64,000 nt of DNA from Halomarina rubra (GTDB taxonomy: Archaea > Halobacteriota > Halobacteria > Halobacteriales > Haloarculaceae), in assembly GCF_023699475.1 (NCBI RefSeq), contig NZ_JALXFV010000002.1, forward strand, positions 62,001-126,000. Reading direction: 5' to 3'. The notes under the pieces were generated by a model. It saw nothing but the letters and a program-made list of their open reading frames with translations. It was not told where the DNA came from and did no database searches. Position numbers and translations under genes: made by a program. Shown here one piece after another: positions 57,382 to 61,443 of this stretch. Every line of letters begins with the position of its first letter. Position 1 is the stretch's first letter.

Positions 57382-57573
57382 CTACCGATACTCGGAGATG
57401 TCGACCGTGAGATCGGACGAGAGCCAACCGTCACAGTTGCCTTCTTCGACGAGGAGGGTCCGTCCCGGAGCGGTCGAACACGCGGTCGCACGGACGACGT
57501 CGTCGGGTTCGGACTCCCACTCGGACGAGAGCGCCTCGGCGGAGTCGTCACGATTTCCCTGGGAGCGAGTCAC
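57382..57573 (-). CDS. Small conserved haloarchaeal protein (VVR-TA-C-APGRT type)
   Basis: 63 residues from GTG at 57573. The C-terminal half DDVVRATACSTAPGRTLLVE followed by GNCDGWLSSDLTVDIS is a pattern I recognise from small haloarchaeal proteins of unknown function, often near regulators. Two cysteines (in TACST and GNCDG) could bind metal. A perfect GTTTAGG/CCTAAAC repeat sits directly upstream. It is encoded ahead of the ABC pair on the same strand. Confidence 0.72.
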   Translation of the reverse strand: MTRSQGNRDDSAEALSSEWESEPDDVVRATACSTAPGRTLLVEEGNCDGWLSSDLTVDISEYR

Positions 57574-57717: not shown

Positions 57718-58524
57718 ATGGAGTCGCCGTTCGACGACATCGCGTTCCTCGCTCGCTCGCCCAACCGCGTTCGGGTCCTCGCGGCGCTGTCGTCGGGGCC
57801 GCACACGCGCGACGACCTGCGCTCGACGACCGACGTCAGCGCGGTGACGGTCAAGCGGAGCGTCGCCGACCTCCTCGAACGGGGGTGGGCCGAGGAGGTC
57901 GCCCCGGCAGGAGGCGGGCGAACCTATCGGACGACCCGACTCGGCGACCACGTCCTCGCTGACTTCTCGCGGCTGGAGACCACCGTACGGGCGGCCCAGC
58001 GACTCGGGCCGGTCGTCGAGTGGTTGCCCGAAGACCTCCTCGACCTGGACCTCCGGGTGTTCGCGGACGCGTTCGTCCTCGACCCCGACCGCTACGACCC
58101 GACGGCGCAACTGGACCGGTGGCTCGACCTGACGCGCTCGGCCGAGCACACGACGCTCGTGACGAACGTCGTCTCCGAGGTGCTCCTCGACGCCTACCGC
58201 GACTGCATCGTCGACGGTGGGATGCGGTTCGAGGCCGTCCTCTCGGCGAGTGCGGCCGACCGCGTCGACGCATCGCCCCGGATGCGGGCGTGGACCCGCG
58301 AGATGCTCGACACGGACCGGGCGACGCTGTACCGCTCGGAGGCGTCGCTCCCGCACGTCGTCGGCGTGTTCGGCGATACGGTCGGCGTCGTCGCGACGGA
58401 CGACTACGGCGCGACCCGCGTCGGTATCGAGAGCGACGCCGAAGCGGTCCGGGAGTGGGCGCGGGCGACCTACGAGCGCTACCGGGCGGACGCGACGCCG
58501 TTCGTCCCCACCCCCGACGACTGA
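57718..58524 (+). CDS. Winged-helix transcriptional regulator (FilR1/COG4742-like)
   Basis: 268 residues. The N-terminal winged helix (residues 5-75) has FLARSPNRVRVLAALSSGPH, TRDDLRSTTDVSAVTVKRSV and GRTYRTTRLGDHVLADF. The C-terminal domain (100-260) has WLPEDLLDLDLRVFADAFVL, ATLYRSEASLPHVVGVFGDT and the final GVESDAEAVREWARATYERY-like helix. This domain pair is the haloarchaeal/methanogen FilR1-like family. Three palindromes lie just downstream before the next gene, so it may regulate that gene. Confidence 0.85.
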   Translation: MESPFDDIAFLARSPNRVRVLAALSSGPHTRDDLRSTTDVSAVTVKRSVADLLERGWAEEVAPAGGGRTYRTTRLGDHVLADFSRLETTVRAAQRLGPVVEWLPEDLLDLDLRVFADAFVLDPDRYDPTAQLDRWLDLTRSAEHTTLVTNVVSEVLLDAYRDCIVDGGMRFEAVLSASAADRVDASPRMRAWTREMLDTDRATLYRSEASLPHVVGVFGDTVGVVATDDYGATRVGIESDAEAVREWARATYERYRADATPFVPTPDD

Positions 58525-58563
58525 CCGCTCGCCCGACTGGATCCCGCCGGCGGAAACTCGAAG

Positions 58564-58611
58564 GACACGCCGTGTCGAACGAACACGTCGTGTCGACCCG
58601 ACCACGCCGTG
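58564..58611 (+). promoter_or_regulatory. Three palindromic sites of form CACGNCGTG in a row
   Basis: GACACG-C-CGTGTC at 58564-58576, ACACG-T-CGTGT at 58583-58593 and CACG-C-CGTG at 58603-58611, with centres 18 and 19 bases apart. They end just before a GATTATC box. The spacing and shared core suggest an array of operator sites for one dimeric protein. Confidence 0.6.
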
Positions 58612-58612
58612 C

Positions 58613-58619
58613 GATTATC
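58613..58619 (+). promoter_or_regulatory. TATA box of the 100-residue protein gene
   Basis: GATTATC follows the third palindrome by two bases and lies 55-61 bases before the ATG at 58674. A leader of about 30 bases and the GGAGGG at 58663-58668 fit a non-leaderless message. Confidence 0.5.
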
Positions 58620-58673
58620 TCGGCCGGTACCCTCGATACGGACGAGCGACGAACCCGTCCTCGGAGGGATACT

Positions 58674-58976
58674 ATGCCCGTCTACGAAGCACACTACACG
58701 TTCAGCGACGCACAGGGCGGTCGCCAGCAGGCGACGATGAACCACGCGATGACCGTCCTCGGCGAGTTCCAGGCCGACGGCGTCCCGATTCGACATCTCG
58801 GCACGACGCTGTCGTTCGACGCCGCGGGCGTGCCGACCGACGCGGTCGCCCGGTTCGACGCCCCGACCGTCGGGACCGTCGGCTGGTACTGCTACCTCGC
58901 GGAACTCCCCATCAGCGGGTTCCGCCGGGTCGAGGAGTCGACGCCTCCGGCGGAGGCTCGGGCGGTCTCGGCGTAG
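58674..58976 (+). CDS. Protein of unknown function behind a triple operator
   Basis: 100 residues: MPVYEAHYTFSDAQGGRQQA, then LGEFQADGVPIRHLGTTLSF and GTVGWYCYLAELPISGFRRV. No membrane segment or known motif; the alternation of short strands and helices suggests a ferredoxin-like alpha/beta fold. A GGAGGG ribosome-binding site lies five bases before the ATG (rare in this window, so it decides the start). It converges with folCP seven bases away. Confidence 0.7.
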   Translation: MPVYEAHYTFSDAQGGRQQATMNHAMTVLGEFQADGVPIRHLGTTLSFDAAGVPTDAVARFDAPTVGTVGWYCYLAELPISGFRRVEESTPPAEARAVSA

Positions 58977-58983
58977 ACCGCCG

Positions 58984-61443
58984 TCACTCCTCGTCCGCGT
59001 CGTCGAGCGCGTGGGCGGTCCGGACCGCGACGACGTTCTCGGGGACGTCGTGGACGCGGACCACGTCCGCTCCGCGGTCGGCGGCCAGTGCCGAGGCGGC
59101 GATGGTGCCCGCGGAGGCGTCGCCGGCGTCCTCGCCGACCAGCGAGAACATCGACTTGTGGGAGTGGCCGATGAGGACGGGACAGCCGAGCGCGTGGAAC
59201 TCGTCGAGTCGGCTCAGCAGTTCGAAGTTCTCGCGTTTGGACTTCCCGAACCCGAGCCCCGGGTCGACGATGATACGCGAGCGGTCCAGCCCCGACTTCT
59301 CGGCGAGGAGGACGCGCTCTCTGAGCTGTTCGACGACGTCCTCCACGACGTCGTCGTACTCCACGTCCGTGTCCGGGTCGACCGGCGCGTCGATGGAGTG
59401 CATCACGACCGTCGGGGGCTGGTACTCCGCGAGGACCTCGCGCATTCCGGGGTCGTCGAGGCCCGTCACGTCGTTGATGATGTCCGCACCCGCCTCCAGG
59501 GCCGCGCGGGCGACCGGGGCCTTCCGCGTGTCGACGGAGACGAGCGCGTCGAGGTCCGCGACGGCCTCGACGAGCGGGACGACGCGTTCTATCTCCTCCT
59601 CGACCGAGACGGGGTCCGCACCGGGACGGGTCGACTCGCCACCCACGTCGAGGATGTCGACGCCCGCCTCGACCATCGCCTCGGCGCGCTCGCGGGCCTC
59701 CGCCAGCGCGTTGTACTCCCCGCCGTCGTGGAACGAGTCGGGCGTGACGTTGATGATACCCATGACCGCCGTTCTGGCCTCCCAGGGGTACTCGGGGGGG
59801 TCGGTCTCGACGTCGAGCGTCTCCCGGAGTCGGTCGGCGACCTGCTGGAGGCCGAACGGCTGGTCGTCGAGTTTCGCGAGCAGGCGCTTGAACTGCGAGA
59901 GCGTCCCCATCAACACCACGTCGAGCGGTTCGTGGTCCTGCGTCGACAGCCCCGAGGTGGCACACTCACCACCGAGTGACAGCATCTCCTCTTTGAGGTA
60001 CTGGGCCTGTCGCGGCCGAACGCGGGTCTTGACGACGCGGTGGACGCCCTTCCCGCGCATCCGCCAGACGCCGCCTTCGGTGACGTCGGCCGATTCGAGG
60101 ACGGCGCGGGCCTCCTTCAGGTCCGTGACGCGTTTGGGTATCTCGGGAGCGACCCACGACTCGCGGGCCTCCGCGACGACGTACAGCGAACCCGTCAGCA
60201 GGACGGCGTCGCCGGGGGCGGCCGCTTCGCGCGCTCGGGCCAGCGCGTCCGGGACGTTCCCACCGACGTGGACCTCGTCCGCGCGGTCCTCGGCCCGGAA
60301 GACGCGAGCGAGCGCCTCGGGCGACTCGGCGCGGTCGGTGTCCGCCCGGCAGGTGTAGACGTGGTCGGCGCGGGGGAGCGCCGCGACCATCTCCGCGTGG
60401 TCCTTGTCGCTCATCGCGCCGAACACGAGGTGCAGGTCGTCGTAGTCGAACTCCGCGAGCGTCTCGGCGACCGTCACACAGCTTCCCGGGTTGTGCGCCC
60501 CGTCGAGCACCGTCAGCGGGTCGCGCTCCATCACTTCGAAACGGCCGGGCCAGTGGGCGCTGGCGAGACCGCGAGCGAGCGTCGGTTCGTCGAGGGGGAC
60601 GTCCAGCGCGTCGGCGACCTGCCGGGCGAGGACGGCGGCGACGCCCGCGTTCGACGTCTGGTGGGCACCGAGTTGTGAGAGGCGAGTCTCGACCGACCAG
60701 TCCGGGCCGTCGAGCGCGATTCGCCCGGACAGCCCTTCTCGACCCTCGTAGCGGGCGCGGACGTCGGGCGGTTCGGCCCGGTCGGTGTCGTCGTCCGCAC
60801 CGACCGTGACGACCGACTCGACCTCGTCGCGGACGGCCGCCAGCGCCTCGCCGGTCGTCGCGGTGACGAGTGGTGACCGCCCGGCGACCTGGGCCTTGTC
60901 GCGTGCGATCTCCGCCTCGGTGTCGCCCAGCAGGTCCGTGTGTTCGAGCGTGACCGTCGTGACCGCGCTCGCCAGCGGGTCGACGACGCTGGTCGCGTCG
61001 TAGCGCCCGCCGATGCCGACTTCGAGGACGGCGACGTCCACCTCCGCTCGCGCGAACGCCCACAGCGCGAGCACCGTCGTCGACTCGAAGAACGTCGGAC
61101 AGTCGCCCGCGGCCGCAGCGTCGAGCGTGTGCTCGCGGGTCGCCTCGACGAACTCACGGACCGCGCGTTTGGTCACCTTCCGGCCGTCGATGCGGACGCG
61201 CTCGCGGAGGTCGGAGAGGTGTGGCGAGGTGAACAGCCCCACGTCCAGGCCGGCCTCGCGGAGGGTGCGTTCGACCATCCGTGCGGTCGAACCCTTCCCG
61301 TTCGAGCCGGCGACCTGGACGCAGACGAGGTCGTCCTGGGGGTCGCCGAGAGACTCGCAGAGCGCCCGTGTCGCGTCGAGGCCCTTGCGCGACGGGTACC
61401 GGCGCAGGTCGAAGAGGAAGTTCGCGGCCTCGTGGTACTCCAT
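58984..61443 (-). CDS. folCP: Fused folylpolyglutamate synthase and dihydropteroate synthase
   Basis: 819 residues. N-terminal FolC ligase (about 1-430): VCVQVAGSNGKGSTARMVER (P-loop), GLFTSPHLSDLRERVRIDG, TTVTLEHTDLLGDTEAEIA and VMERDPLTVLDGAHNPGSC. Then a middle segment (about 435-555) with TRVRPRQAQYLKEEMLSLGG and VLMGTLSQFKRLLAKLDDQP, whose family I do not recognise. C-terminal FolP (from Met561): GIINVTPDSFHDGGEY, LDVGGESTRPGADPVS, INDVTGL, DPGLGFGKSK and HSHKSMFSL. It joins p-aminobenzoate to the pterin and adds the first glutamate in one polypeptide. Confidence 0.93.
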   Translation of the reverse strand: MEYHEAANFLFDLRRYPSRKGLDATRALCESLGDPQDDLVCVQVAGSNGKGSTARMVERTLREAGLDVGLFTSPHLSDLRERVRIDGRKVTKRAVREFVEATREHTLDAAAAGDCPTFFESTTVLALWAFARAEVDVAVLEVGIGGRYDATSVVDPLASAVTTVTLEHTDLLGDTEAEIARDKAQVAGRSPLVTATTGEALAAVRDEVESVVTVGADDDTDRAEPPDVRARYEGREGLSGRIALDGPDWSVETRLSQLGAHQTSNAGVAAVLARQVADALDVPLDEPTLARGLASAHWPGRFEVMERDPLTVLDGAHNPGSCVTVAETLAEFDYDDLHLVFGAMSDKDHAEMVAALPRADHVYTCRADTDRAESPEALARVFRAEDRADEVHVGGNVPDALARAREAAAPGDAVLLTGSLYVVAEARESWVAPEIPKRVTDLKEARAVLESADVTEGGVWRMRGKGVHRVVKTRVRPRQAQYLKEEMLSLGGECATSGLSTQDHEPLDVVLMGTLSQFKRLLAKLDDQPFGLQQVADRLRETLDVETDPPEYPWEARTAVMGIINVTPDSFHDGGEYNALAEARERAEAMVEAGVDILDVGGESTRPGADPVSVEEEIERVVPLVEAVADLDALVSVDTRKAPVARAALEAGADIINDVTGLDDPGMREVLAEYQPPTVVMHSIDAPVDPDTDVEYDDVVEDVVEQLRERVLLAEKSGLDRSRIIVDPGLGFGKSKRENFELLSRLDEFHALGCPVLIGHSHKSMFSLVGEDAGDASAGTIAASALAADRGADVVRVHDVPENVVAVRTAHALDDADEE

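Follow-up and report, generated by a model that had tools for sequence, protein, structure and literature searches.

Three palindromes with the core CACGNCGTG, lying between two co-oriented genes of Halomarina rubra, are with good probability the operator of the winged-helix regulator encoded just upstream, as judged from sequence comparison. The array would be one instance of an operator type that a haloarchaeal branch of the HVO_A0261_N/FilR1 regulators probably has in common. The window analysed here is a 64,000-nucleotide stretch of the H. rubra genome, and its relevant features are as follows.

57718..58524, + strand: regulator gene P0001, 268 aa, with HVO_A0261_N winged helix-turn-helix and FilR1_middle domains (Pfam)
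58564..58576, no strand: candidate operator site 1, GACACGCCGTGTC, 6-bp arms, centre 58570, containing an exact ACACGNCGTGT
58583..58593, no strand: candidate operator site 2, ACACGTCGTGT, 5-bp arms, centre 58588, containing an exact ACACGNCGTGT
58603..58611, no strand: candidate operator site 3, CACGCCGTG, 4-bp arms, centre 58607, assigned by sequence and geometry
58613..58619, + strand: TATA-like box GATTATC, read from the sequence, of the presumed P0002 promoter
58663..58667, + strand: Shine-Dalgarno-like GGAGG, read from the sequence, 6 nt before the ATG at 58674
58674..58976, + strand: candidate target gene P0002, 100 aa, no Pfam family, predicted ferredoxin-like fold (low confidence)

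A tandem array of palindromes between P0001 and P0002

The three palindromes fall within the 149-bp intergenic region 58525-58673, with centre-to-centre distances of 18 and 19 bp. Each matches the core at 8/8 positions, with flanks of ACACG/CGTGT or CCACG/CGTGC. By its geometry, site 3 directly adjoins the TATA-like box and covers part of the presumed BRE. The initial annotation had described three palindromes with declining arms at this spacing in front of a TATA box, together with a Shine-Dalgarno sequence before the target gene, and the sequence bears out both.

Among 3000 dinucleotide shuffles of the intergenic region, the top score was 19/24 core matches and none contained even a pair at 15/16, whereas the array scores 24/24, so that the sites are not a chance occurrence. 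Single copies of CACGNCGTG mean little, because the core is common (202 copies in the 4.07-Mb genome). The longer ACACGNCGTGT occurs 11 times, against 0 for the reversed control; about six of the other exact copies lie inside reading frames with coding-like composition, and two single sites, C12:244403 and C15:212936, possibly lie between genes. The tandem arrangement CACGNCGTG N8-11 CACGNCGTG was found at two loci only, the present one and C15:974257-974284.

The adjacent regulator and its family

P0001 matches HVO_A0261_N (PF25213; E 4e-25, 87.8 bits against a cut-off of 35) and FilR1_middle (PF08350; E 6e-22, 78.5 bits against a cut-off of 27). Pfam gave no receiver-domain match along its 268 residues, the PDB held no sequence relative, and the DNA upstream of the gene contains no site of its own. 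The type is a common one, a one-component regulator with a tandem operator. Further upstream, a 63-aa open reading frame on the minus strand (57382-57573) has a weak, below-cut-off match to DUF7331.

FilR1 of Methanosaeta harundinacea, the founder of PF08350, likewise joins a winged helix-turn-helix to a FilR1_middle (DUF1724) domain; however, FilR1 works within a two-component system and ends in a receiver domain at its C-terminus (PMC5847659), whereas P0001 lacks such a domain. A word search through the FilR1 paper (PMC3991700) returned no footprint, palindrome or binding motif.

A first look at five haloarchaeal genomes gave 80 to 111 candidate family genes per genome, 7 to 14 of which reached E<=1e-20. 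In a phylogenetic tree, regulators linked to EamA transporter genes form one clade (support 100/99) and the three other P0002-linked regulators another (100/100). Outside both clades, P0001 sits on a long branch with two paralogs from genome G021 (93/84), and all three lineages fall inside a wider supported group (98/97). The specificity of P0001 is therefore inferred from this wider group. The recognition helix reads SAVTVKRSVADL in P0001 and SQATLGRILEDF in an EamA-type regulator.

The presumed target gene P0002

P0002 is coding, as homologs at 33-41% identity occur in other genomes. It is nevertheless a rare gene: homologs were present in 4 of 145 relatives, and six clear members were found across 391 genomes of the class; matches at E<=0.001 extend to 61 of the 391, a figure that includes weak matches of uncertain meaning. 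Within the family, only two of 146 genomes have the gene. Pfam and NCBIfam contain no family for it and the PDB no sequence relative, and two contig scans, with P0002 alone and with a 3-row alignment, yielded no relatives.

A 6-row alignment proved too diverse for use. The single-sequence AlphaFold2 model has the order beta-alpha-beta-beta-alpha-beta at pLDDT 67. Foldseek with this model, folded without an alignment, returned nothing at E<=0.001, with a best TM-score of 0.64 to HI0828; hence no function is claimed for P0002. Beyond it, on the minus strand (58984-61200), one long frame appears by eye to be a FolC-FolP type fusion, with folylpolyglutamate synthase-like and dihydropteroate synthase-like parts.

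The motif recurs beside homologous regulators across haloarchaea

A scan for the DNA pattern alone (CACGNCGTG N8-11 CACGNCGTG) was run over 391 genomes of the class; of the 390 other than that of H. rubra, 16 contain the tandem motif. In five of these (L044, L048, L049, L050 and L052) it is an intergenic, 18-bp-spaced pair. There it stands upstream of the gene for a P0001 homolog of full length (32-37% identity) that diverges from an EamA transporter gene, the transporter being assigned by Pfam in L044 and by sequence likeness in the other four. The remaining 11 matches overlap long reading frames. The chance of finding 5 of 16 beside family genes is of the order of 1e-7, a rough and generous estimate, three of the five being near relatives. 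It assumes about 50 family genes which, together with flanks of 600 bp, make up less than 1% of a genome.

A profile of the EamA-linked regulators was used to pick their orthologs throughout the class, which gave 67 upstream regions. Pairs at 18 bp (at least 13/16 matches) are present in 22 of the 67, compared with 0.15 in shuffles, although the orthologs are related to each other and the counts are non-independent events. No such pair was seen in 27 paralog upstream regions, a small control from five genomes of one family. After thinning to below 75% identity, 10 of 27 orthologs retained 18-bp pairs, whereas other spacings between 14 and 23 bp gave 0 to 4, and 31 of the 56 sites in the thinned set fall in two of 18 registers. 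In the full set, sites start most often at -61, -43 and -79 relative to the ATG, and -97 is frequent as well. When stacked, the upstream regions display TTTC/GAAA boxes phased at 18 bp, which end just before the regulator's TTTA box.

The EamA-type sites have the form TTTCACGGYGTGAAA. The other members of the branch use TT(T/G)CACGGYGTG(A/C)AA arrays at 18 bp, for the most part where the regulator and an EamA transporter gene share a divergent promoter; in the EamA-type arrays the last site ends about -32 from the probably leaderless start of the regulator. These divergent regulators share 31-37% full-length homology, the CACGNCGTG core and 18-bp tandem sites with the P0001 locus. Position and flanks differ: the EamA arrays are shared with the divergent EamA gene and have TTTCACG..CGTGAAA, whereas the P0001 array lies downstream of its regulator, before P0002, and has ACACG..CGTGT; the TTTC...GAAA extension is absent here.

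Sites also follow other regulator genes of the wider group. In H. rubra itself, a P0001 paralog (L089, G000:C12:503579-504355 and following) has TCACGTCCTGA and, 18 bp on, CCACGTCGTGA; the pair spans the stop codon and precedes a small membrane-protein gene, which is probably another regulator-target unit. At L104 (G021:C1:3728569-3729339), TTCACGTCGTGAA and, at 19 bp, ACACGCGGTAA stand just after a related regulator, and the gene that follows encodes a secreted, probably lipid-anchored protein. At L206 (G132), a single TCACACCGTGA comes after a related regulator, and next to it are an AGATTATCTC box resembling the GATTATC box before P0002, and a SnoaL-like gene. The motif is thus likely to be a property of the family branch and not of P0001 alone.

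Upstream of L070, a single divergent promoter contains three or more TCACGGCATGA / TCATGACGTGA sites at 17-bp spacing, along with near-copies of CAGCTCACGGTACCAAA, and so is an expanded version of the array.

Declining symmetry had been taken in the initial annotation as a sign of graded affinity. This is not upheld by the relatives, in which the position of the best site within the array varies and arm lengths follow no consistent order. The conservation in related genomes that the annotation proposed as a check is found in kind, as an architecture beside homologous regulators.

A second target candidate and conserved gene company

The other perfect tandem pair of the H. rubra genome (C15:974257-974284) precedes a gene with a SnoaL_2 domain (55.3 bits against a cut-off of 27):

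G000:C15, L015:1564-1965: SnoaL-like gene P0003, unlinked to P0001, with a site pair 19 bp apart upstream

A TTAT lies 32 bp before its ATG. From the presumed TATA box to the closest site centre is about 27 bp, compared with about 10 bp at P0002, and distances so different fit a single simple mechanism poorly.

In three other genomes (G021, G350 and G231) a P0001-type regulator gene is immediately followed, on its own strand, by a gene for a distant P0002 homolog. The DNA between the two genes contains CACG-type sites: CACGCCGTG in G021, CACGGCGTG and, at 18 bp, CACCAAGTG in G350, and a decayed first site, CACGATGTG, with CACCTAGTG 18 bp on, in G231. In G350 the regulator stands between a SnoaL gene, which comes first, and the P0002 homolog. 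G320 has a SnoaL homolog (40% identity) next to a P0002 homolog, both on one strand and preceded by CACGCCGTG and, at 19 bp, TCACCGTGA; a family regulator 1.4 kb further on is itself preceded by TCACACCGTGT and, at 18 bp, ACACGCTGTGA. The sister species of the same genus (G001) has the SnoaL ortholog without sites, but neither a near relative of P0001 (132 bits at best, against 383) nor a clear P0002. SnoaL homologs other than those of H. rubra and G320 have no tandem sites. Overall, the regulator, the sites and the P0002 and SnoaL genes thus tend to travel together.

Elsewhere (L154 / L018, genome G118), a P0002 homolog is found about 100 bp behind a gene for an HTH_10 (Bat-type)-like regulator, with CACGCTGCGTG, not CACGNCGTG, upstream; this homolog seems to have swapped its regulator.

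Proposed mechanism and alternatives

We infer that a P0001 dimer would sit on each palindrome of roughly 15 bp, centred on the CACGNCGTG core, and that tandem dimers, touching at 18-19 bp, would line up upstream of and over the BRE/TATA region. So placed, P0001 would control transcription of P0002 and very probably also that of the unlinked SnoaL-like gene, through its 19-bp-spaced pair. The adjacent winged-helix protein had been named as the likely binder in the initial annotation, a reading that the presence of the motif beside homologous regulators supports well. The FilR1_middle domain may hold a ligand pocket, and repression relieved by a small ligand of this domain is about an even prospect. 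In favour of repression are the overlap between site 3 and the presumed BRE and the end of the last EamA-type site near -32 from a start that is probably leaderless; the SnoaL pair, about 27 bp from its TATA box, does not favour it.

That last pair bears on the reading in which P0001 is an activator, its array upstream of BRE/TATA recruiting TFB/TBP and switching on P0002 and the SnoaL gene. The array does lie upstream of the TATA box in both targets, and at the SnoaL gene the closest site centre stays clear of the BRE. The overlap of site 3 with the presumed BRE and the end point of the EamA-type arrays are, however, positions typical of repression, and activation is a possible but less probable direction of control. 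The sites might also belong to some other, unlinked factor, a global regulator or a P0001 paralog, with P0001 as neighbour or co-target: its own promoter has no site, and dozens of family paralogs per genome could bind. Yet the motif tracks this regulator branch to varied neighbours (EamA, P0002-like, SnoaL-like and other genes), and the sister species keeps the SnoaL gene with neither regulator nor sites. A global factor would moreover be expected at unrelated promoters, whereas the 11 non-regulator tandem matches overlap long reading frames. We consider this ownership unlikely. Chance or composition can be virtually dismissed: the GC-rich genome does yield single CACGNCGTG sites frequently, most of them coding, but the tandem spacing, the intergenic placement, the shuffle results and the recurrence beside homologous regulators all speak against such an origin. 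Control by P0001 itself is accordingly the reading we prefer.

Relation to described systems and significance

CsmR of Haloferax volcanii, with the motif TATCA(N4)TGATA (PMC13286277), is a haloarchaeal regulator whose semi-palindromic site lies beside a TATA box, like the P0001 array; its site sequence differs from CACGNCGTG, and the two are likened by site only. A literature search that covered few subscription papers returned neither a DNA site described for any haloarchaeal family member nor a described EamA operator. The site and its recurrence appear to be undescribed. The view of the locus as an undescribed unit thus holds as far as the motif goes, but the unit is not isolated, as a second tandem operator stands before the SnoaL-like gene and the arrangement recurs across the class.

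A single operator code may extend over the whole HVO_A0261_N/FilR1 branch, with CACGNCGTG cores at 18 bp and flanks (ACACG, TTTCACG, TTGCACG) that separate paralogs, a proposal for and against which we would wager equally. If it is true, the regulons of many uncharacterised archaeal regulators would be predictable from sequence. The recurring operator in 18-bp phase predicts targets, here small ferredoxin-like and SnoaL-like proteins and in other genomes EamA exporters, and with it short oligonucleotides suffice to probe binding and specificity.
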